Position numbers and translations under genes: made by a program. Positions 10,467 through 64,000 of a DNA stretch of 64,000 nucleotides are shown here, piece after piece. Within the stretch, counting starts at the first letter, position 1; each line of letters opens with the position of its first letter. Where the stretch lies: assembly GCA_019448385.1 (NCBI GenBank), contig JAGTXO010000027.1, positions 1-64,000 on the forward strand. The letters are read 5' to 3'. Under the pieces are notes generated by a model. The model ran no database searches. It saw only the letters and a program-made list of their open reading frames with translations, and was not told where the DNA came from. Origin of the DNA: Diacronema lutheri. Lineage: Eukaryota > Haptophyta > Pavlovophyceae > Pavlovales > Pavlovaceae.

Positions 10467-10550
<84 letters not shown>

Positions 10551-19655: not shown

Positions 19656-19720
<65 letters not shown>

Positions 19721-21193: not shown

Positions 21194-24100
21194 TCACAGC
21201 GTGTCCATCGGTTTGCCCCTGTGTTTGTGGAGGAGGCGTCTCAGAGCTTTGGGCGAGCGGGACAGCTTCTTCTCAAAGATGTGCTTGATGCGAGCCTCAA
21301 ATCCTGGAAACAGCTCCGGAGATGTGAGGCGGTAGATGAAAGAACCAATGCCACAAATCGACGCGAAGCACGCGTGGTCCTTGTCCCCGCTCGTCTCAAG
21401 CAACGTGCACCAGTCGGACAGGAGCGCGTTAAAAGCCTCGGCGTTGTCGCCCTTGAGCCGCGAGGCGACGCCGTCGCACATGAACGTGACGAAGCTCACG
21501 TTGCCGAGCACGGCGCGCCACGTCTCGAGGCGCCCGAGGAAGGCCTCGGCGTTGTCGCCCGCGAGCCCCGAGGCGACGCCGTTGCACATGAACGTGACGA
21601 AGCCCTTGTTGCCAAACTCCAGCCAGCACCCCACGAGGTACTCGTTGAAGGCCTCGGCGTTGTCGCCCGCGAGCCCCGAGGCGACGCCGTCGCGCATGAG
21701 CGTGACGAAGCCCTCGTCGCCGAGCGCGGCGTGCCACGCCTCGAGGCGCCCGAGGAAGGCCTCGGCGTTGTCGCCCGCGAGCCCCGAGGCGACGCCGTTG
21801 CACATGAACGTGACGAAGCCCTTGTTGCCAAACTCCAGCCAGCACCCCACGAGGTACTCGTTGAAGGCCTCGGCGTTGTCGCCCGCGAGCCCCGAGGCGA
21901 CGCCGTCGCGCATGAGCGTGACGAAGCCCTCGTCGCCGAGCGCGGCGTGCCACGCCTCGAGGCGCCCGAGGAAGGCCTCGGCGTTGTCGCCCGCGAGCCC
22001 CGAGGCGACGCCGTTGCACATGAACGTGACGAAGCCCTCGTCTCCAAACTCCAGCCAGCACCCCACGAGGTACTCGTTGAAGGCCTCGGCGTTGTCGCCC
22101 GCGAGCCCCGAGGCGACGCCGTCGCGCATGAACGTGACGAAGCCCTCGTCGCCGAGCGCAGCGTGCCACGCCTCGAGGCGCCCGAGGAAGGCCTCAACGT
22201 TGTCGCCCGCGAGCCCCGAGGCGACGCCGTTGCACATGAACGTGACGAAGCCCTTGTTGCCAAACTCCAGCCAGCACCCCACGAGGTACTCGTTGAAGGC
22301 CTCGGCGTTGTCGCCCGCGAGCCCCGAGGCGACGCCGTTGCACATGAACGTGACGAAGCCCTTGTCGCCGAGCGCGGCGTGCCACGCCTCGAGGCGCCCG
22401 AGGAAGGCCTCAACGTTGTCGCCCGCGAGCCCCGAGGCGACGCCGTTGCACATGAACGTGACGAAGCCCTCGTCGCCGAGCGCAGCGTGCCACGCCTCGA
22501 GGCGCCCGAGGAAGGCCTCAACGTTGTCGCCCGCGAGCCCCGAGGCGACGCCGTCGCTCATGAACGTGACGAAGCCCTTGTCGCCAAACTCCAGCCAGCA
22601 CCCCACGAGGTACTCGTTGAAGGCCTCGGCGTTGTCGCCCGCGAGCCCCGAGGCGACGCCGTTGCACATGAACGTGACGAAGCCCTCGTCGCCGAGCGCG
22701 GCGTGCCACGCCTCGAGGCGCCCGAGGAGGGCCTCAACGTTGTCGCCCGCGAGCCCCGAGGCGACGCCGTTGCACATGAACGTGACGAAGCCCTTGTCGC
22801 CAAACTCCAGCCAGCACCCCACGAGGTACTCGTTGAAGGCCTCGGCGTTGTCGCCCTTGAGCCCCGAGGCGACGCCGTCGCACATGAGCGTGACGAAGCC
22901 CTTGTCGTCGAGCGCGGCGTGCCACGCCTCGAGGCGCCCGAGGAAGGCCTCAACGTTGTCGCCCGCGAGCCCCGAGGCGACGCCGTTGCACATGAACGTG
23001 ACGAAGCCCTTGTCGCCAAACTCCAGCCAGCACCCCACGAGGTACTCGTTGAAGGCCTCGGCGTTGTCGCCCTTGAGCCCCGAGGCGACGCCGTCGCACA
23101 TGAGCGTGACGAAGCCCTTGTCGTCGAGCGCGGCGTGCCACGCCTCGAGGCGCCCGAGGAAGGCCTCAACGTTGTCGCCCGCGAGCCCCGAGGCGACGCC
23201 GTTGCACATGAACGTGACGAAGCCCTTGTCGCCGAGCGCAGCGTGCCACGCCTCGAGGCACGCGTCGTGCTTGGCGAGGTCGAGGTACAGAGCACCGTGC
23301 ATGAGGATGGCGCGCAGCACCTTGTCGCCACGCCCCCGACATTTTGTCAGCAGTGCCTGCACTGCGGGTAGGTGCGCGTCCATGTGCCGCAGGTGCCGGT
23401 GCTCGGGCAAGAAGCGGTCGCTCGTCGTCTGCGCGCCGTACAGCAGCTTCGTGGTGAAGAGGCGCCCCTGTGCCCGGGCGGCGACGTCTTGCGCCCTGTC
23501 GCCGAGGGCCTGGTGCACGAACGCGTCGATGTCGGCGACGGTGTCCGCGCCGGTGTCCGCGTCGTGCGAAGCGTCCGACGCTGCGCGCCACGCCAGCATG
23601 CCGTTCAGGATGCACATGGTCTCCTCGAAAATGCGCACCGCCAGCGGAGCCCTTTTCATCATCAGATGCCAGGAGGGGTGCGGCGCGTTTTCGAGCGCGA
23701 TGAAGCGGACGTCGCCCATCGCGAAGAGCGAGATTTCGTGCAGCGAGGACATGCACGGCGCGCGCTCGCGCGTGACGATGCCCATGTCGATGGCCTTCTC
23801 GAGCGCCGCCTGGCACGTCTCGCCGGTAACGTAGACCACGTGCACGTCCTCCGTGCCGAGCGCGCGCAGGTGATCGCCAAGGCGCTTGAAGTAGTTGCGC
23901 ACCATCTCGGCGTCGGCAGCAAACAGGGCCATCTTGTCCTGGTCGAAGATCGAATTGATGGTCGTGGAGCTGAAGACGCACAGATTAACCCAGACAATGC
24001 GCACGACGTCGCCGAGCACCTTGCGAGCCTCGCGCTCCGTCTTGCTTACTGGAACCGTGTCCGCCTTCGCGTGCGGGTAGAGGCCGAGGACGATCAGGAC

Positions 24101-24244
24101 GCGTCCCCGTGTTCGTGTTGGCGGTGACACGAACACGAACACGTCACCGCCCTGCTTGACGCACTTCATCTGCTTGGCGATGATCTCGTCCGACACCGTG
24201 GCAGCGCGCATGCTCGCCGGCGTGTCTCGCCGCCGCTTGGACAT
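21194..24244 (-). CDS. Uracil-glycosylase-like domain fused to seventeen 36-residue tandem repeats
   Basis: Single exon of 1,016 residues from ATG 24244 (MSKRRRDTPASM, a possible nuclear signal). Residues ~20-190 resemble the DUF1643/uracil-DNA-glycosylase fold: VLIVLGLYPHAKADT sits where an NPS-x-AD loop belongs, followed by VNLCVFSSTTI and ENAPHPSWHLM, an HPS motif as in UDG motif B. A linker rich in Ala and Asp follows. Then come seventeen contiguous 36-residue units (DNA 23257-21422, exactly 17 x 108 bp) and a diverged capping unit beginning LSDWCTLLE. The unit core is GFVTFMCNGVASGL. Variation concentrates on a residue pair after FM/LM: CN, CD, SD or RD. The layout recalls modular helical nucleic-acid-binding arrays, but no such family is confirmed. 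Low-GC flanks and lack of introns would fit acquisition from a virus or mobile element; this is inference. Confidence 0.85.
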   Translation of the reverse strand: MSKRRRDTPASMRAATVSDEIIAKQMKCVKQGGDVFVFVSPPTRTRGRVLIVLGLYPHAKADTVPVSKTEREARKVLGDVVRIVWVNLCVFSSTTINSIFDQDKMALFAADAEMVRNYFKRLGDHLRALGTEDVHVVYVTGETCQAALEKAIDMGIVTRERAPCMSSLHEISLFAMGDVRFIALENAPHPSWHLMMKRAPLAVRIFEETMCILNGMLAWRAASDASHDADTGADTVADIDAFVHQALGDRAQDVAARAQGRLFTTKLLYGAQTTSDRFLPEHRHLRHMDAHLPAVQALLTKCRGRGDKVLRAILMHGALYLDLAKHDACLEAWHAALGDKGFVTFMCNGVASGLAGDNVEAFLGRLEAWHAALDDKGFVTLMCDGVASGLKGDNAEAFNEYLVGCWLEFGDKGFVTFMCNGVASGLAGDNVEAFLGRLEAWHAALDDKGFVTLMCDGVASGLKGDNAEAFNEYLVGCWLEFGDKGFVTFMCNGVASGLAGDNVEALLGRLEAWHAALGDEGFVTFMCNGVASGLAGDNAEAFNEYLVGCWLEFGDKGFVTFMSDGVASGLAGDNVEAFLGRLEAWHAALGDEGFVTFMCNGVASGLAGDNVEAFLGRLEAWHAALGDKGFVTFMCNGVASGLAGDNAEAFNEYLVGCWLEFGNKGFVTFMCNGVASGLAGDNVEAFLGRLEAWHAALGDEGFVTFMRDGVASGLAGDNAEAFNEYLVGCWLEFGDEGFVTFMCNGVASGLAGDNAEAFLGRLEAWHAALGDEGFVTLMRDGVASGLAGDNAEAFNEYLVGCWLEFGNKGFVTFMCNGVASGLAGDNAEAFLGRLEAWHAALGDEGFVTLMRDGVASGLAGDNAEAFNEYLVGCWLEFGNKGFVTFMCNGVASGLAGDNAEAFLGRLETWRAVLGNVSFVTFMCDGVASRLKGDNAEAFNALLSDWCTLLETSGDKDHACFASICGIGSFIYRLTSPELFPGFEARIKHIFEKKLSRSPKALRRLLHKHRGKPMDTL
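21422..23257 (-). repeat. 17 x 108-bp coding tandem repeat
   Basis: Units are in perfect register with no indels. Two unit faces alternate, one beginning LEAWHAAL and one beginning LVGCWLEF, so most of the array has a 216-bp higher-order period. In N- to C-terminal order the variable pairs are CN, CD, CN, CD, CN, CN, SD, CN, CN, CN, RD, CN, RD, CN, RD, CN, CD. Units with CD at positions 2, 4 and 17 also carry Lys in GLKGDN instead of GLAGDN. Near-identity at DNA level points to recent expansion or gene conversion. Confidence 0.95.
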
Positions 24245-30182: not shown

Positions 30183-32968
30183 ATGGTCCGCGCGCTCGCG
30201 TACCGTCCAGCCGTCCAGCCGTCAGGTAGACGGCCACCGCTCGCCCTCGCCGCTCTGTGCCCTGCGGCCCGACAGCCAGAGCTGGCGCCGAGGAGGAGGG
30301 CCGTTGCAAGGTTCATCACGACCTTATTAGCAGCCATCAGATCAAAAAATTCGCCCTCATACAAATCGGAGGTACTCGCCACTGGGCAGTTTGGTCGGGC
30401 CATCCGCCGCGGTCGCGACGACGACGGGACGGCCAGGGAGACGCGGGAGCAGCCGCAGCGCGCCGCGATGCCCGCGCGCGGCACGCCGCCCGGCCCGCGT
30501 GTGAGCGCGCTCGGCAAGCGACACGTACGGCCCACCGAAAAGGCCGCCGCGGCGCTGCGCGAGGCGCGCGAGGACCGGCCGGTGACGGCGCACAGCGTCG
30601 GCGGCGGTGGCGGCAGCGGCGGCGCGGTGCCCCCGCCGCCTCGCCGCGCCGCCGCCGCCGCCGACTCTAGCCTCATCGCCGCCGCGTCCGCCGCCGCCGC
30701 CGCGCGCGGTGCCAGCGCGGCGAGCGGCGCGCTCGTGCCCGGCGCGGTCGTCGACGTGTCGCGCGTGGCGTCGGCGGCGGCGGCGGCGGCGGCGGCGGAC
30801 GGGCGGGCAGCGATGCCGCGGCGCGCGAGCGTCGTGCTCGTCGCCGCTGGCCGCTGCCTCCTCCGCTACGACGGCGCGCCGCCCGGCCGCGAGGAGTGGG
30901 CGCCGCTCAGCGCCGTCGCACCCGCGCCGGGCGAGCCGCGCCGCGCGCCGCCGGCCGACGCGCCATGCGGCGTGTGCGGCGAGTGTGGGGGCAGCTCGCC
31001 GTTCGTGGCGTGCGCGTGCTGCGAGAGCCTGCTGCATTCGAGCTGCGTCCGCCTCCTCACCGAGCGCGTCTGCTCGCAGCTCAGCGGCAGCCACCCGGCC
31101 GACGGCGCCGAGTGGGAGACCGCCGCCGAGGCCGCCGCGCGCATCGCGAGCGCGACGAGCGCGCCGGCCAAGGGGCGCGCGGCGGCGGCGGCGGCGGCCG
31201 CGTCGGCGTGCGGCGCGCCACCCTCAGCCGCCTCCGCTGCCCTCTCCTCCCTCGCCCTCGCGCGCTCTCTCGCTCTCGCGCACGCGGCGCACGGGCCGGC
31301 ATGGCACTGCCCGCGCTGCGTCGCCTTCGCCTCGTTTGGCCTTGGCCTCTCGCGGCTGAGCGGCGCGGAGGTGGTTGACGAGCGCGCCGAAGCGGCGGTC
31401 GCGGCGTGCGCGTACGAGTGGCTGAGCGGCGGCGCCGCCGGCGCTGCGCTCCTCGCCGCCGGCGCCGACGACAACGCGGCCGGCGACGCGAGCATCGACG
31501 GGGCGCCGCGCCGACAACGGCCTCGCACCGACGCGGGCGAGCTGACCGTCGGCGAGGAGGCCGACGTTGGCGCCTCCAGCTCGGACGGTGCCTCCAACGC
31601 GCTCATCGCCGCCGTCCTGCACGCCGCGCTTGCCGACGCGCACAGCTCGCTCCGCGCCGCGAGCGGCGGCGCTGAACGCGCGGCCGAGCGCCGCGCGCAC
31701 GCGCGCGCCCGTGGCGGCGCGCGCGATGCGGGCGGCGCGGGCGGTGGCGGGCGCGCGCCGGCCAACGGCGCTGCGGACGACGCCGTCGCCGCGTCTACGG
31801 GCGCGGGCGCGGGCGTCGGCCTCGGCGCGCTGCTCGCCGACCGGGCGGCCCGCCTCCTCTCGCCGTTGCCCGCACCGCCGTTGCCGTCTGCGCACAGCGC
31901 CGAGCAGCCAACCGAGCGCGCGATCACCGCCGCGCTCTCCGACTTTGCGCACGCCGCCGCCGAGCGCGCGGCCGCCGCGTCCGCCGCGGCGGCCGCGGCC
32001 GCGTGCGCGAGCGCGTGCGGCGGCGCGGCCGCCGGGTACGGAGTGGCGGGCGCGCCGCCGCCGCTGCCGTACGCCAGTTACGCCGCCAGTTACGCCCTCG
32101 CGCGGCCGAACTGCTCGCCGTGCGCGGCCGCGACCGCCGCGGCCGTCGGCGTGGGCACAGGCGGTGCGGGCGCGGCCAAGGCCCGGACGCCACGCCGACC
32201 CAAGGCGACGGCGGGCGGCGGGGTCGCCGGTGGCCCGGCGCATGGCGGCGCCGGCGTGCACGCGACGCTGCACGCCGGCGGCGGCGGCGCGCCGCAGCCG
32301 CCGCTGGCGGCGGCCGGCGGCTCGTTTGCGCGCGGCGAGGGCATGGGTGGCGGCGTGGGCGGCGGCGAGGGTATGGGCGGCGGCGATGACGGCGGCGGCA
32401 GGTGGGCGACGCCCGCGCCAGGCGCCGCAACCGGTGGCGCGCGTGTCGCCGGCAGCGACGGCGACGGCGGTGGTGGAGGCGGTAGCGCGCGCGCGCGCGA
32501 CGGCGACGGCGACACGGCCACCTCGCGCAAGACATCACTCTACCGCGGTGTCTCGAAGCGGCACGGGCGGTGGAAGGCACGCGTCAAGCGGAACGGCAAG
32601 GAGGTGGTGATTGGCTGCTTCTCCACCGAAATTCAGGCAGCGCGCGCCTACGACCAGTTTGCGATCCAATTACATGGCGCCAGGGCGGTGCTCAATTTTG
32701 CCGAGTCGGCGCAGGCGGCAGCGCACGCGCACGCCGGCATCTCGCAACACGGCAGGCATCACCGCTCCGCCATCGTGAATCTGAATGCCGTCCGCCTCAT
32801 CCCAGCCGACGAGAAGCTGCGCTCGTCTGCCGCACGCGTGCGCGGCGGCCGCGGCGCGCGCGCCGCCGGCGGCAAGCGCGGCGCGGCCGCGGACGGCGCG
32901 GACGGCGCCGGCGCGAACGACGACGATGATGACGATGACGACGACGATGACGGCGATGATGATGATGA

Positions 32969-33000
<32 letters not shown>

Positions 33001-33722
33001 GCTCGTACGCACGCCGCGCCGCGCGCATTGGCGCCGAGCGCCGCGGCGATGGCGGCGGTGGCGGTGGCGCGACAGGCGCCGGCGGCGATGGCGACGGGCG
33101 CGGCGACGGCTCGGACGCCGACTCGCACTCGGAGCTCATCGCCGCGCTGCGCGCGCAGGGCCGGCGCGCGGGCGGAAGCGCGCGCGCCGGCGGCGGCCGC
33201 CTCGCCGGCGGCGGCCATGCGGCGTTCGCGCCCTGCGGCGCGTTCGGCGGCGCGCCCGCGCACGGCTGCGGCGGCGCGCACGACGGCGCTGCTGCCAACG
33301 ACGAGGACGTCGAAGCCGAGGTGCGCGCGCTCGCGGACGACGTGCTGCTGCTCGGTGGCGCACACGGGCTGGGTGAGCTGCCCCAGCTCAGCGCGGATGA
33401 TGACGGGCTGCTGCTCTCGGGCATAGGCCCTCTCGGGATTGGGCCAATGGCGACCATGTTCAACCTCTCGCACCTCGGTACGCTCGACGACCACTCGGAC
33501 GCCGAGCCGGACGCCGAGCCGGACGCAGGCGGCGCGCGACACGACGACGTCGACGATGGCGGGGGCGAGGACGATGGCGGGGGCGAGGACGATGGCGGGG
33601 GCGAGGACGATGGCGGGGGCGAGGACGATGGCGGTGCGCGCGGCGCGCACGGCGCGCGGTCCGGCGCTGACGGCGACGGTGACGGTGACGGCGACGGCGA
33701 CGGCAACGGCCGGTCAAGTTAG
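30183..33722 (+). CDS. PHD-finger + AP2/ERF domain transcription factor
   Basis: Single exon, up to 1,179 residues from ATG 30183. An alternative ATG at 30468 (MPARGTPPGPRV) is likely, because the sequence before it is AT-richer and UTR-like. A PHD-type zinc finger begins at about residue 262 (CGVCGECGGSSPFVACACC, then SSCV) and closes with WHCPRC near 375. Long Ala/Gly linkers follow. One AP2 DNA-binding domain starts at about residue 785: LYRGVSKRHGRWKARV, then GCFSTEIQAARAYDQFAI and a final LNFAE. Next comes a long Asp run and four copies of GGGEDD near the C-terminus. PHD fingers usually read histone tails and AP2 domains bind DNA, so a chromatin-linked regulator is expected. Its stop codon abuts that of the next gene. 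Confidence 0.88.
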
Positions 33723-52971: not shown

Positions 52972-55900
52972 ATGCCTGACGAGCACCGAGCGCACCTGGG
53001 TGTGCCTGGAGTCACCCGAAGCACAGCGCTTGGGTCCAAGTCGCGGCTGAGCGCAAGTACAAGTGCGCAATCGCGCGCACGCGCGGCGAGCCGCGCGACC
53101 TCGCGCCAGCTTAAGCCAAGGCTCGTCGCAGGCGCGTATCTGCTTGCAGCGCTATTCGCGCAGCCCGCGCTGGCGCCAACGCCATACACCCCGCCGAAGC
53201 CGCCCCCGTCGCCACCGCCCCCAAGCTCGCCACCTATCCCACCGCCCAGCCCGCCGCCCAGCCCGCCACCGTCTCCGTCACCGAGTCCGCCGCCGAGCCC
53301 ACCGCCAAGACCGCCGCCGTCACCGCCACCGAGCCCACCGCCAAGACCGCCGCCCAGCCCACCGCCCAGCCTGCCGCCCAGCCCACCGCCCGGCCCGCCG
53401 CCGAGCCCGCCGCCGAGCCCGCCGCCGAGCCCGCCGCCGAGCCCGCCGCCAAGCCCGCCGCCCAGCCCGCCGCCCAGCCCGCCGCCCAGCCCGCCGCCCA
53501 GCCTGCCGCCCAGCCCACCGCCCAACCCGCCGCCGAGCCCGCCGCCCAGCCCGCCGCCCAGTCCGCCTCCCAGCCCACCGCCGAGTCCGCCGCCCAGCCC
53601 ACCGCCAAGCCCGCCGCCCAGTCCGCCGCCAAGCCCGCCGCCGAGTCCACCGCCAAGCCCGCCTCCCAGCCCGCCGCCCAGCCCACCGCCTTCTCCGCCG
53701 CCGAGCCCGCCGCCGAGCCCACCGCCCAGCCCACCGCCCAGCCCACCGCCCAGCCCGCCGCCCAGCCCGCCTCCAAGCCCGCCGCCAAGCCCACCACCGA
53801 GCCCGCCGCCAAGCCCGCCGCCAAGCCCGCCGCCTAGCCCGCCACCGAGCCCGCCACCGAGCCCGCCTCCCAGCCCGCCGCCCAGCCCGCCGCCCAGCCC
53901 GCCGCCCAGCCCGCCGCCAAGCCCGCCGCCCAGCCCGCCGCCAAGCCCGCCGCCAAGCCCGCCGCCGAGCCCACCGCCACGCCCACCGCCCAGCCCACCG
54001 CCCAGCCCGCCGCCCAGCCCGCCTCCAAGCCCGCCGCCCAGCCCGCCTCCAAGCCCGCCGCCAAGCCCGCCGCCCAGCCCGCCGCCCAGCCCACCTCCCA
54101 GCCCGCCGCCTAGCCCGCCGCCCAGCCCACCGCCCAGCCCGCCTCCCAGCCCGCCTCCCAGCCCGCCTCCCAGCCCGCCGCCCAGCCCGCCGCCCAGCCC
54201 GCCGCCCAGCCCGCCGCCTAGCCCGCCGCCCAGCCCACCGCCTAGCCCACCACCGAGCCCGCCGCCGAGCCCGCCGCCCAGCCCGCCGCCTATCCCGCCG
54301 CCCAGCCCGCCGCCAAGCCCACCACCGAGCCCGCCGCCCAGCCCGCCGCCAAGCCAGCCGCCAAGCCCACCACCGAGCCCGCCGCCCAGCCCGCCTCCCA
54401 GCCCACCACCGAGCCCACCGCCAAGCCCGCCGCCAAGCCCGCCGCCCAGCCCACCGCCTTCTCCGCCGCCAAGCCCACCGCCCAGCCCGCCACCGAGTCC
54501 ACCGCCCAGCCCGCCACCGAGCCCGCCGCCCAGCCCGCCACCAAACCCGCCGCCAAGCCCGCCGCCCAGCCCGCCTCCAAGCCCGCCGCCGAGCCCGCCG
54601 CCCAGCCCACCGCCTTCTCCGCCGCCCAGCCCGCCACCTAGCCCGCCACCAAGCCCGCCGCCAAGTCCGCCGCCGTCTCCGCCGCCAAGCCCGCCGCCAA
54701 GCCCGCCGCCCAGCCCGCCGCCGAGCGCGCCGCCAAGCCCGCCGCCAAGCCCGCCTCCAAGCCCGCCGCCGAGCCCGCCGCCCAGCCCACCGCCTTTCCC
54801 GCCGCCCAGCCCGCCGCCTAGCCCGCCACCAAGCCCGCCGCCAAGCCCGCCGCCAAGCCCTCCGCCAAGCCCTCCACCAAGCCCTCCGCCGAGCCCACCG
54901 CCGAGCCCGCCGCCCAGCCCACCGCCTTTCCCGCCGCCCAGCCCGCCGCCTAGCCCGCCACCAAGCCCGCCGCCAAGCCCGCCGCCAAGCCCGCCGCCAA
55001 GCCCGCCGCCAAGCCCGCCGCCAAGCCCTCCGCCAAGCCCTCCCCCGAGCCCACCGTCGAGCCCACCGCCCGGCCCGCCTCCAAGCCCGCCGCCTAGCCC
55101 GCCACCAAGCCCGCCTCCAAGCCCGCCGCCCAGTCCACCGCCTAGCCCGCCGCCAAGCCCGCCGCCAAGCCCGCCGCCAAGCCCGCCGCCCAGCCCGCCG
55201 CCCAGCCCACCTCCGAGCCCGCCGCCCAGCCCGCCACCGAGCCCGCCGCCCAGCCCGCCGCCCAGCCCGCCGCCCAGCCCGCCACCCAGCCCGCCTCCAA
55301 GCCCGCCGCCCAGCCCGCCGCCCAGCCCACCGCCTTCTCCGCCGCCCAGCCCGCCGCCCAGCCCGCCTCCAAGCCCGCCGCCGAGCCCGCCGCCCAGCCC
55401 ACCGCCTTCTCCGCCGCCCAGCCCGCCGCCTAGCCCGCCACCAAGCCCGCCGCCAAGCCCGCCGCCAAGCCCTCCGCCAAGCCCTCCACCAAGCCCTCCG
55501 CCGAGCCCACCGCCGAGCCCGCCGCCCAGCCCGCCTCCAAGCCCGCCGCCAAGCCCACCACCGAGCCCGCCGCCAAGCCCGCCTCCAAGCCCGCCGCCAA
55601 GCCCACCACCGAGCCCGCCGCCAAGCCCGCCGCCGAGCCCACCGCCGAGTCCGCCGCCGAGCCCACCACCGAGCCCGCCGCCCAGCCCGCCGCCCAGCCC
55701 GCCGCCCAGCCCGCCGCCCAGCCCGCCTCCCAGCCCGCCGCCAAGCCCGCCGCCCAGCCCGCCGCCCAGCCCGCCGCCGTCTCCGCCGCCCAGCCCGCCT
55801 CCAAGCCCGCCGCCCAGCCCGCCGCCCAGCCCACCGCCTTCTCCGCCGCCAAGCCCACCGCCCAGCCCGCCGCCGAGTCCACCGCCCAGCCCACCGCCGA

Positions 55901-58900
55901 GCCCGCCGCCCAGCCCGCCTCCAAGCCCGCCGCCAAGCCCACCACCGAGCCCGCCGCCAAGCCCGCCGCCGAGCCCACCGCCGAGTCCGCCGCCGAGCCC
56001 ACCACCGAGCCCGCCGCCCAGCCCGCCGCCCAGCCCGCCGCCCAGCCCGCCGCCCAGCCCGCCACCCAGCCCGCCGCCAAGCCCGCCGCCCAGCCCGCCT
56101 CCCAGCCCGCCGCCGTGTCCGCCGCCCAGTCCACCACCCAGCCCGCCGCCATCTCCGCCGCCTAGCCCGCCTCCAAGCCCGCCGCCCAGCCCGCCGCCCA
56201 GCCCACCGCCTTCTCCGCCGCCAAGCCCACCGCCCAGCCCGCCGCCGAGTCCACCGCCCAGCCCGCCTCCAAGCCCGCCGCCAAGCCCACCACCGAGCCC
56301 GCCGCCAAGCCCGCCGCCAAGTCCGCCGCCCAGCCCGCCACCGAGCCCACCGCCGAGCCCACCGCCAAGCCCACCACCGAACCCACCGCCAAGCCCGCCG
56401 CCCAGCCCACCGCCGAGCCCGCCGCCCAGCCCGCCGCCCAGCCCGCCGCCCAGCCCGCCGCCCAGCCCGCCGCCCAGCCCGCCGCCCAGCCCGCCTCCCA
56501 GCCCGCCGCCCAGCCCGCCGCCCAGCCCGCCGCCGTCTCCGCCGCCCAGCCCGCCTCCAAGCCCGCCGCCCAGCCCGCCGCCCAGCCCACCGCCTTCTCC
56601 GCCGCCAAGCCCACCGCCCAGTTCGCCGCCGAGTCCACCGCCCAGCCCACCTCCCAGCCCGCCGCCCAGCCCGCCACCAAGCCCGCCGCCAAGTCCGCCG
56701 CCCAGCCCGCCACCGAGCCCACCGCCGAGCCCACCGCCAAGCCCACCACCGAGCCCACCGCCAAGCCCGCCACCGAACCCACCGCCAAGCCCGCCGCCGA
56801 GCCCACCGCCGAGCCCGCCGCCCAGCCCGCCGCCCAGCCCGCCGCCCAGCCCGCCGCCCAGCCCGCCGCCCAGCCCGCCGCCCAGCCCGCCTCCCAGCCC
56901 GCCGCCCAGCCCGCCGCCCAGCCCGCCGCCCAGCCCGCCGCCGTCTCCGCCGCCCAGCCCGCCTCCAAGCCCGCCGCCCAGCCCGCCGCCGAGTCCACCG
57001 CCCAGCCCGCCTCCAAGCCCGCCGCCAAGCCCACCACCGAGCCCGCCGCCAAGCCCGCCGCCAAGTCCGCCGCCCAGCCCGCCACCAAGCCCACCGCCGA
57101 GCCCACCGCCAAGCCCACCACCGAACCCACCGCCAAGCCCGCCGCCGAGCCCACCGCCGAGCCCGCCGCCCAGCCCGCCGCCCAGCCCGCCGCCCAGCCC
57201 GCCGCCCAGCCCGCCGCCCAGCCCGCCGCCCAGCCCGCCTCCCAGCCCGCCGCCCAGCCCGCCGCCCAGCCCGCCGCCCAGCCCGCCGCCGTCTCCGCCG
57301 CCCAGCCCGCCTCCAAGCCCGCCGCCCAGCCCGCCGCCCAGCCCACCGCCTTCTCCGCCGCCAAGCCCACCGCCCAGCCCGCCGCCGAGTCCACCGCCCA
57401 GCCCACCTCCCAGCCCGCCGCCCAGCCCGCCACCAAGCCCGCCGCCAAGTCCGCCGCCAAGCCCGCCACCGAGCCCACCGCCGAGCCCACCGCCAAGCCC
57501 ACCACCGAGCCCACCGCCAAGCCCGCCGCCGAGCCCACCGCCGAGCCCGCCGCCCAGCCCGCCGCCCAGCCCGCCGCCCAGCCCGCCGCCCAGCCCGCCG
57601 CCAAGCCCGCCGCCCAGCCCGCCTCCCAGCCCGCCGCCCAGCCCGCCGCCCAGCCCGCCGCCCAGCCCGCCGCCCAGCCCGCCGCCAAGCCCGCCGCCCA
57701 GCCCGCCTCCCAGCCCGCCGCCCAGCCCGCCGCCCAACCCGCCGCCAAGCCCGCCGCCCAGCCCGCCGCCCAGCCCGCCGCCAAGCCCGCCGCCCAGCCC
57801 GCCTCCAAGCCCGCCGCCCAGCCCGCCGCCAAGCCCACCGCCTTTTCCGCCGCCAAGCCCACCGCCCAGCCCGCCGCCGAGTCCACCGCCCAGCCCACCT
57901 CCCAGCCCGCCGCCCAGCCCGCCACCAAGCCCGCCGCCAAGTCCGCCGCCCAGCCCGCCACCGAGCCCACCGCCAAGCCCACCACCGAGCCCACCGCCAA
58001 GCCCGCCTCCCAGTCCGCCGCCGAGCCCGCCGCCAAGCCCGCCGCCCAGCCCGCCGCCCAGCCCGCCGCCCAGCCCGCCGCCCAGCCCGCCTCCCAGCCC
58101 GCCGCCGAGCCCGCCGCCGTCTCCGCCGCCCAGTCCACCTCCCAGCCCGCCTCCCAGCCCGCCGCCGAGCCCGCCGCCATCTCCGCCGCCCAGCCCACCT
58201 CCAAGCCCGCCGCCGAGCCCGCCGCCCAGCCCACCGCCTTCTCCACCGCCAAGCCCACCGCCCAGCCCGCCGCCGAGTCCACCGCCCAGCCCACCTCCCA
58301 GCCCGCCGCCTAGCCCGCCGCCCAGCCCGCCGCCAAGTCCGCCGCCCAGCCCGCCGCCCAGCCCACCGCCGAGCCCACCGCCAAGCCCGCCGCCAAGCCC
58401 GCCGCCCAGCCCGCCGCCCAGCCCGCCGCCCAGCCCGCCACCGAGCCCGCCGCCCAGCCCGCCACCCAGCCCGCCGCCCAGCCCGCCGCCTAGCCCGCCG
58501 CCCAGCCTGCCACCGAGCCCGCCGCCCAGCCCGCCACCAAGCCCGCCGCCAAGTCCGCCGCCAAGCCCGCCGCCAAGCCCTCCGCCGAGCCCACCGCCGA
58601 GCCCGCCACCCAGCCCGCCTCCAAGCCCGCCGCCAAGCCCACCACCGAGCCCACCGCCAAGCCCGCCACCGAGCCCGCCGCCAAGCCCGCCGCCTAGCCC
58701 GCCACCAAGCCCGCCGCCCAGCCCGCCGCCAAGCCCTCCGCCGAGCCCACCGCCGAGCCCGCCGCCCAGCCCGCCTCCAAGCCCGCCGCCGAGCCCGCCG
58801 CCCAGCCCACCGCCTTCTCCGCCGCCAAGCCCACCGCCCAGCCCGCCGCCGAGTCCACCGCCCAGCCCACCTCCCAGCCCGCCGCCCAGCCCGCCACCAA

Positions 58901-61900
58901 GCCCGCCGCCAAGTCCGCCGCCCAGCCCGCCACCGAGCCCACCGCCGAGCCCACCGCCCAGCCCGCCGCCCAGCCCGCCTCCAAGCCCTCCACCGAGCCC
59001 GCCGCCCAGCCCGCCGCCCAGCCCGCCGCCCAGCCCGCCGCCCAGCCCGCCGCCCAGCCCGCCGCCCAGCCCGCCGCCCAGCCCGCCGCCCAGCCCGCCG
59101 CCCAGCCCGCCTCCCAGCCCGCCGCCCAGCCCGCCGCCCAGCCCGCCGCCCAGCCCGCCGCCGTCTCCGCCGCCCAGCCCGCCTCCAAGCCCGCCGCCCA
59201 GCCCGCCGCCGAGTCCACCGCCCAGCCCGCCTCCAAGCCCGCCGCCAAGCCCACCACCGAGCCCGCCGCCAAGCCCGCCGCCAAGTCCGCCGCCCAGCTC
59301 GCCACCAAGCCCACCGCCGAGCCCACCGCCAAGCCCACCACCGAACCCACCGCCAAGCCCGCCGCCGAGCCCACCGCCGAGCCCGCCGCCCAGCCCGCCG
59401 CCCAGCCCGCCGCCCAGCCCGCCGCCCAGCCCGCCGCCCAGCCCGCCGCCCAGCCCGCCTCCCAGCCCGCCGCCAAGCCCGCCGCCCAGCCCGCCGCCCA
59501 GCCCGCCGCCGTCTCCGCCGCCCAGCCCGCCTCCAAGCCCGCCGCCCAGCCCGCCGCCCAGCCCACCGCCTTCTCCGCCGCCAAGCCCACCGCCCAGCCC
59601 GCCGCCGAGTCCACCGCCCAGCCCACCTCCCAGCCCGCCGCCCAGCCCGCCACCAAGCCCGCCGCCAAGTCCGCCGCCAAGCCCGCCACCGAGCCCACCG
59701 CCGAGCCCACCGCCAAGCCCACCACCGAGCCCACCGCCAAGCCCGCCGCCGAGCCCACCGCCGAGCCCGCCGCCCAGCCCGCCGCCCAGCCCGCCGCCCA
59801 GCCCGCCGCCCAGCCCGCCGCCAAGCCCGCCGCCCAGCCCGCCTCCCAGCCCGCCGCCCAGCCCGCCGCCCAGCCCGCCGCCCAGCCCGCCGCCCAGCCC
59901 GCCGCCAAGCCCGCCGCCCAGCCCGCCTCCCAGCCCGCCGCCCAGCCCGCCGCCAAACCCGCCGCCAAGCCCGCCGCCCAGCCCGCCGCCCAGCCCGCCG
60001 CCAAGCCCGCCGCCCAGCCCGCCTCCAAGCCCGCCGCCCAGCCCGCCGCCAAGCCCACCGCCTTTTCCGCCGCCAAGCCCACCGCCCAGCCCGCCGCCGA
60101 GTCCACCGCCCAGCCCACCTCCCAGCCCGCCGCCCAGCCCGCCACCAAGCCCGCCGCCAAGTCCGCCGCCCAGCCCGCCACCGAGCCCACCGCCAAGCCC
60201 ACCACCGAGCCCACCGCCAAGCCCGCCTCCCAGTCCGCCGCCGAGCCCGCCGCCAAGCCAGCCGCCCAGCCCGCCGCCCAGCCCGCCGCCCAGCCCGCCG
60301 CCCAGCCCGCCTCCCAGCCCGCCGCCGAGCCCGCCGCCGTCTCCGCCGCCCAGTCCACCTCCCAGCCCGCCTCCCAGCCCGCCGCCGAGCCCGCCGCCAT
60401 CTCCGCCGCCCAGCCCACCTCCAAGCCCGCCGCCGAGCCCGCCGCCCAGCCCACCGCCTTCTCCACCGCCAAGCCCACCGCCCAGCCCGCCGCCGAGTCC
60501 ACCGCCCAGCCCACCTCCCAGCCCGCCGCCTAGCCCGCCGCCCAGCCCGCCGCCAAGTCCGCCGCCCAGCCCGCCGCCCAGCCCACCGCCGAGCCCACCG
60601 CCAAGCCCGCCGCCAAGCCCGCCGCCCAGCCCGCCGCCCAGCCCGCCGCCCAGCCCGCCACCCAGCCCGCCGCCCAGCCCGCCGCCTAGCCCGCCGCCCA
60701 GCCCGCCACCGAGCCCGCCGCCCAGCCCGCCACCAAGCCCGCCGCCAAGTCCGCCGCCAAGCCCGCCGCCAAGCCCTCCGCCGAGCCCACCGCCGAGCCC
60801 GCCACCCAGCCCGCCTCCAAGCCCGCCGCCAAGCCCACCACCGAGCCCACCGCCAAGCCCGCCACCGAGCCCGCCGCCAAGCCCGCCGCCTAGCCCGCCA
60901 CCAAGCCCGCCGCCCAGCCCGCCGCCAAGCCCTCCGCCGAGCCCACCGCCGAGCCCGCCGCCCAGCCCGCCTCCAAGCCCGCCGCCGAGCCCGCCGCCCA
61001 GCCCACCGCCTTCTCCGCCGCCAAGCCCACCGCCCAGCCCGCCGCCGAGTCCACCGCCCAGCCCACCTCCCAGCCCGCCGCCCAGCCCGCCACCAAGCCC
61101 GCCGCCAAGTCCGCCGCCCAGCCCGCCACCGAGCCCACCGCCGAGCCCACCGCCCAGCCCGCCGCCCAGCCCGCCTCCAAGCCCTCCACCGAGCCCGCCG
61201 CCCAGCCCGCCGCCCAGCCCGCCGCCCAGCCCGCCGCCCAGCCCGCCGCCCAGCCCGCCGCCAAGCCCGCCGCCCAGCCCGCCTCCCAGCCCGCCGCCGT
61301 CTCCGCCGCCCAGTCCACCTCCCAGCCCGCCGCCGAGCCCGCCGCCAAGCCCACCGCCGAGCCCGCCACCCAGCCCGCCGCCGTCTCCGCCGCCCAGCCC
61401 GCCGCCAAGCCCGCCGCCAAGCCCGCCGCCCAGTCCACCGCCAAGCCCGCCGCCATCTCCGCCGCCCAGCCCGCCGCCAAGCCCGCCGCCCAGCCCACCG
61501 CCGAGCCCTCCGCCATCTCCGCCGCCCAGCCCACCTCCAAGCCCGCCGCCGAGCCCGCCGCCCAGCCCGCCGCCCAGCCCGCCGCCAAGCCCTCCGCCGA
61601 GCCCACCGCCGAGCCCGCCGCCCAGCCCGCCTCCAAGCCCGCCGCCGAGCCCGCCGCCCAGCCCACCGCCTTCTCCGCCGCCAAGCCCACCGCCCAGCCC
61701 GCCGCCGAGTCCACCGCCCAGCCCACCTCCCAGCCCGCCGCCCAGCCCGCCACCAAGCCCGCCGCCAAGTCCGCCGCCCAGCCCGCCACCGAGCCCACCG
61801 CCGAGCCCACCGCCCAGCCCGCCGCCCAGCCCGCCGCCCAGCCCGCCTCCAAGCCCTCCACCGAGCCCGCCGCCCAGCCCGCCGCCCAGCCCGCCGCCCA

Positions 61901-64000
61901 GCCCGCCGCCCAGCCCGCCGCCCAGCCCGCCGCCAAGCCCGCCGCCCAGCCCGCCTCCCAGCCCGCCGCCGTCTCCGCCGCCCAGTCCACCTCCCAGCCC
62001 GCCGCCGAGCCCGCCGCCAAGCCCACCGCCGAGCCCGCCACCCAGCCCGCCGCCGTCTCCGCCGCCCAGCCCGCCGCCAAGCCCGCCGCCAAGCCCGCCG
62101 CCCAGTCCACCGCCAAGCCCGCCGCCATCTCCGCCGCCCAGCCCGCCGCCAAGCCCGCCGCCCAGCCCGCCGCCGAGCCCTCCGCCATCTCCGCCGCCCA
62201 GCCCACCTCCAAGCCCGCCGCCGAGCCCGCCGCCCAGCCCGCCGCCCAGCCCGCCGCCAAGCCCGCCGCCAAGTCCGCCGCCGTCTCCGCCGCCGAGTTC
62301 GCCGCCAAGCCCGCCACCGAGCCCGCCGCCCAGCCCGCCGCCCAGCCCGCCGCCCAGCCCGCCACCCAGCCCGCCGCCCAGCCCGCCGCCAAGCCCGCCG
62401 CCAAGCCCGCCACCAAGCCCGCCACCAAGCCCGCCGCCCAGCCCGCCGCCGAGCCCGCCGCCATCTCCGCCGCCCAGCCCGCCTCCAAGCCCGCCGCCGA
62501 GCCCGCCGCCCAGCCCACCGCCTTCTCCGCCGCCAAGCCCACCGCCCAGCCCGCCGCCGAGTCCACCGCCCAGCCCACCTCCCAGCCCGCCGCCCAGCCC
62601 GCCACCAAGCCCGCCGCCAAGTCCGCCGCCCAGCCCGCCACCGAGCCCACCGCCGAGCCCACCGCCAAGCCCGCCGCCAAGCCCGCCGCCAAGCCCGCCG
62701 CCAAGTCCGCCGCCAAGCCCGCCGCCAAGCCCGCCGCCAAGCCCGCCGCCAAGCCCGCCGCCAAGCCCGCCGCCAAGCCCGCCGCCATCTCCGCCGCCAA
62801 GCCCGCCTCCCAGTCCGCCGCCGAGCCCGCCTCCAAGCCCGCCGCCGAGCCCGCCGCCCAGCCCGCCGCCAAGCCCGCCGCCTAGCCCGCCGCCAAGCCC
62901 GCCGCCAAGCCCGCCGCCGTCTCCGCCGCCGAGCCCACCGCCCAGCCCGCCGCCCAGCCCGCCACCGAGCCCGCCGCCCAGCCCGCCACCAAGCCCGCCT
63001 CCAAGTCCGCCGCCCAGCCCACCGCCGAGCCCGCCGCCCAGCCCGCCACCAAGCCCGCCGCCGAGCCCGCCGCCAAGCCCGCCGCCAAGCCCGCCACCGA
63101 GCCCGCCGCCCAGCCCGCCGCCCAGCCCGCCGCCCAGCCCGCCGCCCAGCCCGCCGCCTAGCCCGCCACCAAGCCCGCCGCCCAGCCCGCCGCCAAGCCC
63201 TCCGCCGAGCCCACCGCCGAGCCCGCCGCCCAGCCCGCCTCCAAGCCCGCCGCCGAGCCCGCCGCCCAGCCCACCGCCTTCTCCGCCGCCGAGCCCGCCG
63301 CCAAGCCCGCCTCCCAGCCCGCCGCCCAGCCCGCCACCTAGCCCACCGCCGTCTCCGCCGCCGAGCCCACCGCCCAGCCCGCCGCCCAGCCCGCCACCGA
63401 GCCCGCCGCCCAGCCCGCCACCAAGCCCGCCTCCAAGTCCGCCGCCAAGCCCGCCTCCAAGCCCGCCGCCGAGCCCGCCGCCCAGGCCACCACCTTCTCC
63501 GCCGCCGAGCCCGCCGCCAAGCCCGCCGCCCAGCCCGCCGCCCAGCCCGCCTCCCAGCCCACCACCGAGCCCACCGCCAAGCCCGCCGCCAAGCCCGCCG
63601 CCCAGCCCACCGCCTTCTCCGCCGCCAAGCCCACCGCCCAGCCCGCCACCGAGTCCACCGCCCAGCCCGCCACCGAGCCCGCCGCCCAGCCCGCCACCAA
63701 ACCCGCCGCCAAGCCCGCCGCCCAGCCCGCCTCCAAGCCCGCCGCCGAGCCCGCCGCCCAGCCCACCGCCTTCTCCGCCGCCCAGCCCGCCGCCTAGCCC
63801 GCCACCAAGCCCGCCGCCAAGTCCGCCGCCGTCTCCGCCGCCAAGCCCGCCGCCAAGCCCGCCACCGAGCCCGCCGCCCAGCCCGCCGCCAAGCCCGCCG
63901 CCCAGCCCGCCGCCCAGCCCGCCGCCGAGTCCACCGCCCAGCCCACCTCCCAGCCCGCCGCCTAGCCCGCCGCCCAGCCCGCCGCCAAGTCCGCCGCCCA
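52972..64000 (+). CDS. Giant hydroxyproline-rich (SPPP)n protein, 3' end outside window
   Basis: ATG 52972 opens a ~65-residue leader ([17 protein letters not shown] onward) ending in a hydrophobic segment [18 protein letters not shown], a signal peptide or anchor. Then [11 protein letters not shown] leads into Ser-Pro-Pro-Pro repeats. From about 53221 the 12-bp unit runs to the window edge, about 900 units without one frame-breaking indel or stop, giving at least 3,676 codons. Occasional substitutions give Arg, Leu, Gly, Asn, Phe or Cys in place of Ser or Pro. Such sequence is typical of extensin/pherophorin-type wall glycoproteins, whose prolines are hydroxylated and glycosylated. Minus-strand frames are also open (Gly-Leu-Gly repeats) but have no leader. 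The upstream ATG at 52947 stops after ten codons. Confidence 0.8.
56821..61200 (+). repeat. ~2.2-kb tandem segmental duplication inside the SPPP array
   Basis: Sequence 56821-59004 recurs at 59041-61200. The offset is 2,220 bp over most of its length (for example 58141-58260 equals 60361-60480) and 2,196 bp near its 3' part, so one 24-bp difference separates the copies. Diagnostic rare units (CCTTTTCC, CCTTCTCC, CCGAACCC) occur in the same order in both. Confidence 0.85.
61009..62220 (+). repeat. Second tandem duplication of 660/672 bp in the SPPP array
   Basis: The block starting at 61021 recurs at 61681 with a 660-bp offset. It shifts to 672 bp after a 12-bp unit is added near 61830. The same succession of CCGTCTCC, CCATCTCC and AGTCCACC units is seen in both copies. 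Confidence 0.75.

Follow-up and report, generated by a model that had tools for sequence, protein, structure and literature searches.

A head-plus-repeat gene of Diacronema lutheri

The DNA stretch analysed here, referred to as the window, comprises the first 64,000 nucleotides of contig JAGTXO010000027.1 of the haptophyte Diacronema lutheri (assembly GCA_019448385.1), and the gene under study encodes a 1,016-residue protein composed of an N-terminal head and a long array of tandem repeats (Table 1). An intronless open reading frame of this size had been proposed from the sequence alone; it was found uninterrupted from ATG to stop, though on the minus strand, the strand having not been given in the original prediction, and a plus-strand reading of the same interval runs into two stops. 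The head motifs GLYPHAKAD, VNLCVFSST (from residue 86) and NAPHPSW, the seventeen 36-residue repeats in exact register and the diverged cap behind them were all located as predicted. GC contents of 0.65, 0.44 and 0.92 at codon positions 1, 2 and 3 were determined in the minus-strand frame, and the 340-codon head did not stay open in any of 2,000 mononucleotide shuffles; together with homologues of the same head-plus-repeat plan in other genomes, these indicate that the frame did not arise by chance. At the nucleotide level, TRF reported 16.9 copies of a 108-bp period at 21435-23259.

Table 1. Positions of the gene and its parts in the window
Feature	Positions	Strand	Residues	Remarks
Whole open frame, ATG to stop, uninterrupted	21194..24244	-	1,016 in total	ATG at 24244, stop at 21194-21196
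Basic cluster KRRR, nuclear-signal-like	24227..24238	-	3-6	null p 0.42 for the window protein alone
N-terminal UDG-like head	23570..24244	-	about 1-225	boundary approximate; from profile comparison and motif alignment
Head motif 1, GLYPHAKAD	24059..24085	-	54-62	aligns with UDG ExPG / DUF1643 NPS
Head motif 2, WVNLCVFSST	23963..23992	-	85-94	
Head motif 3, VVYVTGETC	23813..23839	-	136-144	
Head motif 4, NAPHPSW	23669..23689	-	186-192	HPS of the UDG superfamily
Linker and N-terminal cap	23231..23569	-	226-338	H284 and R286 conserved
Seventeen tandem 36-residue units (108 bp), types A and B	21395..23230	-	339-950	triplets CNG, CDG, SDG, RDG
Diverged C-terminal cap	21197..21394	-	951-1016	

Beyond the original prediction, a search of the whole genome (43,492,796 bases, 103 contigs) brought the number of copies to three, i.e. 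the window copy on contig C14 and two related, broken ones on C6 and C13. The head on C6 is interrupted by a single in-frame stop, and its array comprises seven units with the triplet CGG six times and then CNS; the C13 head is split across two frames, a TGA lies ahead of the array frame, and the array itself has fifteen 34-residue units. At about 528355-530277 of C6 (G000:C6), the head DNA is ~96% identical to that of the window head and the array is quite different, which suggests that the two parts evolve independently of each other. On contig C29, six matches at 26-28% identity (best E 8.9e-15) were dropped, as the unit motif was found in no frame of loci L011-L013, among which the only repeat-rich frame printed is a different repeat.

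One repeat type behind two kinds of head

Three protein searches yielded at least 40 distinct homologues (P0001-P0040), a lower bound as each search scored only the 8,000 candidates with the most words in common. Their sources are algal and metagenomic, and those named include five proteins of Tribonema minus, one of Pavlovales sp. CCMP2436, one of a 'Megaviridae' environmental sample and one EukProt protein. A head alignable with that of the window protein and resembling uracil-DNA glycosylase (UDG) was found in 23 of the 40 (P0001-P0010, P0014-P0024, P0026 and P0032). A different head, resembling the Vsr/MTES_1575 nucleases, precedes the same repeats in 15, of which 13 were aligned (P0011-P0013, P0027-P0031, P0033, P0035, P0036, P0039 and P0040) and two, P0037 and P0038, were added because their heads are common to P0012 and P0013. 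The remaining P0025 and P0034 have neither head type, with P0034 giving a weak AP2 match (E 0.077). The two kinds of head show little mutual similarity (score 16.4).

In the nuclease-head alignment, D57, H62, D70, K73, R88 and R90 (P0028 numbering) are invariant and E55 is nearly so. These heads share the E-x-D-G...H...D..K...R.R pattern of the MTES_1575 (Vsr-like) endonucleases that are joined to DUF4379 treble clefs in Rhodococcus and Kutzneria, but the likeness concerns the nuclease-head group only and not the window protein, and repeats take the place of the treble clefs. Pfam MTES_1575 itself was reached by one of the 13 aligned members (the P0039 head, E 2.9e-4, under the family's cut-off), and two bacterial relatives of the nuclease head also match it, beside treble-clef domains (E 0.0016 and 1.7e-4, both under the cut-off). 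Among prokaryote genomes, 241 pattern matches led to two relatives, both of the nuclease head only; the viral contig scans and a phage search with P0039 as the only query gave no relative, and the PDB sequence searches gave nothing above noise. Scattered matches of the arrays to Pfam, PHROGs, NCBIfam and PADLOC families were rejected, since the families differed from member to member and nearly all matches were below the curated cut-offs or composed of repeated stretches each under threshold; the few above the Pfam cut-off, such as ImmE5 in P0012 and MerR_1 in P0039, were set aside by judgement as repeat-driven. Two of these family scans took in the best 25 of 71 and the best 25 of 76 families.

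The repeat units are 36 residues long in the window protein, 34 in the C13 copy and mostly 32-41 in the relatives, with 32-36 in most arrays. When units were picked with both columns of the variable pair left unscored, 290 units from 43 proteins were obtained, and in 277 of them the two residues following a conserved M-C were N, D or G and then G or S, i.e. {N,D,G}x{G,S} (DG 81, GG 56, NG 55, NS 38, GS 26, DS 21, all others 13). Column variability was determined over 32 columns in 30 of the 43 proteins, with the last unit of each omitted, and the highest mean within-array value was found at column 6, the first of the pair (0.66, versus 0.49 for the column ranking next). Its immediate neighbours had values of 0.33 and 0.36, and columns 3, 4, 8 and 9 only 0.07-0.18; the peak of variability lies inside the most conserved block. 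After nine listed relatives and the proteins with fewer than five units were left out, column 6 still came first in 1,934 of 2,000 bootstraps of the 23 less redundant proteins used (0.63 versus 0.50 for the next).

The C13 copy is the cleanest case of variation focused on the pair: 14 of its units share 96% mean nucleotide identity and differ at nine variable codons, none of them synonymously, with column 6 encoded by GGC, GAC or AAC. Synonymous differences occur at two codons of the window array. Among relatives whose heads are 94-100% identical, the strings of pairs differ, both by gain or loss of units and by changes within units. Averaged helix and turn propensities, taken from Chou-Fasman values, weakly suggest a helix, a turn on C-[NDG]-[GS] and a second helix. 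Further, basic clusters of the K[KR]x[KR] type are enriched at the protein termini, occurring in 16 of 34 proteins versus 5.6 (standard deviation 2.0) expected from shuffles, a count from which nine of the 43 proteins were left out and in which related proteins were counted separately.

Remote similarity of the head to the UDG superfamily

The original prediction had likened the head to UDG and DUF1643 folds. The first comparisons with both, scoring 13.7-18.4 and using a four-member DUF1643 set that included one wrong-strand frame, showed no signal by HHalign statistics. A profile of 21 heads scored 20.5 against a DUF1643 profile built from five of ten fetched loci, versus a maximum of 16.2 in 60 column shuffles. 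In a test on unselected templates, 112 single templates were ranked, i.e. seven DUF1643, five UDG/MUG and 100 neighbouring frames serving as decoys; the top one (24.6) came from the decoy set and turned out to belong to the UDG superfamily (PF03167, E 3.5e-10). DUF1643 templates took the 2nd, 4th, 5th and 9th ranks, with L065 and L066 near-identical and L068 out of register. Against a UDG profile built from seven sequences related to the top template, the heads scored 25.6, versus a maximum of 20.4 in 100 shuffles and 11.7 for the nuclease heads as control query, and four UDG motifs (ExPG, WxN, VV.G and HPS) aligned in order over 135 columns after realignment; the seven loci, out of 20, had been chosen by their motifs, which favours the alignment. 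In one bacterium, a UDG superfamily gene adjoins a DUF1643 gene (L067:1-525).

The window head has the four UDG motifs in the superfamily's order, and differs in lying below Pfam detection, in carrying LYP in motif 1 and in being fused to a repeat array. Of DUF1643, it has possible counterparts of NPS and VNL, with GLYP in the place of NPS. In the HPS motif, H and P are present in all 25 rows and S in 24. At position 87, D is found in 23 of the 24 aligned heads and also in the C6 and C13 copies, and N solely in the window copy; the residue aligned with the E of UDG ExPG, at position 55, is E in eight of 24 and L in the window copy. In the UDG superfamily, the polar or acidic residue of motif 1 is catalytic, being absent in the UDGb type, and the window head lacks the polar residue expected there (L55). 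At the level of remote homology, the head is supported as UDG-like, and it might act as a glycosylase. The window copy itself may be specialised or decaying, given L55, the N at the otherwise conserved D87 and its acidic array.

What the arrays may read

We propose, giving it about an even chance, that the window protein belongs to a so far undescribed family of modular helical-repeat proteins, most of them from protists, in which the array would read a polymer, most likely DNA, and aim an enzyme-type head. Each unit of 32-41 residues is predicted to form a helix, a turn bearing the [N/D/G][G/S] pair and a second helix; the units would stack into a solenoid with their turns aligned, each turn supplying one or two residues to read the polymer. 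The array would thereby bring its head to chosen sites, this head being UDG-superfamily-like or, in relatives, a nuclease of the Vsr/MTES_1575 type. A nuclear, DNA-directed role is favoured because of the terminal basic clusters and the two kinds of DNA-enzyme-type head; one unit per base, location in the nucleus and catalysis by the head are what we infer from the sequences.

The proposed arrangement recalls that of TAL effectors (TALEs) and TALE-like proteins, with which the arrays share tandem units of ~33-36 residues, a few variable residues placed in a predicted turn with the rest conserved and, in the family average, a most variable column inside the most conserved block. Strict register is kept, as in TAL units of ~33-35 residues, by the 17 x 36 residues of the window array and the 15 x 34 of C13. 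Variation at two adjacent residues, of the TAL type, appears in the family average and strongly in C13, whereas in the window array column 6 is tenth and column 7 never varies. The differences are the {N,D,G}x{G,S} pair after a conserved M-C and the N-terminal enzyme-type heads. In TALE units, the specificity residue is at position 13. Three residues recurring at one site across species look like the alphabet of a code, with loop tolerance as the remaining null; as a guess by analogy, C might be preferred by D, G or A by N, and T by G, with the G/S position refining the choice.

A number of results weigh against the proposed explanation. For the head, the Pfam profile scan gave no UDG (PF03167) match for the window protein, nor for P0001, P0005, P0006 or P0010; HHalign assigned the head-UDG match a probability of 5.4% (E 0.007), and a plain decoy ranked 3rd (21.7) of the 112 templates, with the other DUF1643 and UDG templates at 14th-54th among the decoys. 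The predicted kinship of the head is supported, as remote homology, by the shuffle controls and one unselected test, although not by Pfam or by HHalign's own probabilities of 1-6%. Both sister copies are broken, and a comparison of 330 codons between the window and C6 heads gives a divergence of 3.6% at synonymous and 3.7% at nonsynonymous sites, a ratio (dN/dS) of 1.02 that gives no sign of present-day selection on the head. For the array, the TAL repeat family was absent from the Pfam matches of the window protein and of 12 relatives with complete match lists, and the unit profile found no TALE chain among PDB sequences up to E 10 (best E 0.46). Column 6 is the top column in just eight of 30 arrays; in the window array it ranks 10th of 32 columns and partly tracks unit type (N in eight of nine A units, D in five of seven B units), and in C6 it never varies. 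The window array has a net charge of -3.6 per unit, the lowest of 36 arrays, which argues against this copy binding DNA by simple electrostatics, and 20 of the 36 are net negative (mean about -0.1; C13 +1.9). Lastly, all four residues of the pair (N, D, G and S) favour turns, hence the alphabet could be limited by loop tolerance alone. Of the predicted TALE-like character, the family variability pattern, the helix-turn-helix propensity and the nucleic-acid-enzyme-type heads speak in favour, while a TAL sequence match is lacking, the window pattern is weaker and its array is acidic.

The alternative that survives best, in our view unlikely, is that the arrays serve as helical scaffolds for binding proteins or glycans; the pair would then touch a ligand or lie in a loop that tolerates change, and the heads would be relics or allosteric modules. 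The acidity of the window array and of more than half of the arrays, a pair made almost entirely of turn-forming residues and a dN/dS of about 1 between two heads would all suit such scaffolds; they would account less readily for a variability peak at one column within the most conserved block, for the same three-letter alphabet in distant proteins, for two head kinds that are both of nucleic-acid-enzyme type and for the terminal basic clusters.

Modular RNA binding in the manner of PPR, OPR or HPR proteins, perhaps in organelles, we consider improbable. Such proteins have helical repeats of similar length, and D. lutheri also possesses tandem arrays of 37-residue units, which we take to be HPR/OPR/RAP proteins, ending in an MTES_1575-like domain, as in L072 and L073 (G000:C4); three more MTES_1575 matches lie at 144553-149542 of C18. 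The unit profile of the present family, however, is unlike these 37-residue units (score 8.1 versus a null median of 8.2, with 32 of 60 shuffles as high), basic clusters of nuclear type are enriched at the termini, and the head is of the DNA-glycosylase type.

It is very improbable that the proteins are true but highly diverged TAL effector homologues acquired by protists. Unit lengths of 32-36 residues in most arrays (34 in C13) and a variable pair in a turn between helices would fit, and TALE-likes of little sequence identity do exist, such as the short STAR proteins found in 2024 (PMC11417379); against this, no TAL_effector family appeared in the Pfam results of the window protein and 12 relatives, nor did the PDB sequence search bring up a TALE chain. 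A spurious frame or junk tandem repeat, conceivable in a GC-rich genome with many low-complexity repeats, has a negligible chance, being contradicted by the coding codon structure and the absence of open shuffles and refuted by the homologues with the same plan.

Returning to the DNA-reading arrays, a broader version of the proposal is possible, if doubtful: protists, and perhaps their giant viruses, may have arrived separately from TALEs at a code of {N,D,G}x{G,S} residues in the turns of helical repeats, and may use it in natural targeted base-excision enzymes (with the UDG-like head) and nucleases (with the Vsr-like head), perhaps directed against viral or selfish DNA. These would be a eukaryotic equivalent of the TALE fusions made by engineering. 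Among the papers listed from a largely open-access literature without preprints, no description of the head-plus-repeat family was found, and the literature search gave no paper matching the repeat motif itself. The main text of PMC11417379 does not contain 'algae', 'Tribonema', 'Emiliania', 'virus' or 'uracil', and that of PMC5472282, a screen for TALE-like architecture, does not contain 'alga'. If the arrays do read DNA, they would form a second family of binders that are modular and possibly programmable, use few residues as their alphabet and come naturally fused to enzymes; synthetic arrays could then serve to test how such codes originate and to try out new tools for targeting. If instead their ligand is not DNA, the sharply localised diversification in some forty proteins would still call for explanation.

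As for the surroundings of the gene, positions 2-149 of the window, at the start of the contig, are a telomere-like run of (CCTTAC)n, which places the gene ~21 kb from the contig end. Three of nine neighbouring frames scanned have Pfam matches (ERGIC plus thioredoxin; CRAL_TRIO; AP2), so the setting looks like a host chromosome and not a provirus; an AP2 domain match (E 2e-6, under the curated cut-off) was given by a 1,179-residue frame at 30183-33722 on the plus strand. GC content in the window is 68-85%, and the published genome of D. lutheri NIVA-4/92 amounts to 43.503 Mb in 103 contigs with 73.25% GC (PMC8379373). Pure runs of 69 G and 51 C occur at 10481-10549 and 19656-19706, respectively. 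From about 54000 to 64000 the window shows a strong strand bias (GC skew about -0.45 to -0.47), and an excerpt of this tract, 56000-56600, reads as proline-rich units of the CCGCCGCCCAGC type.

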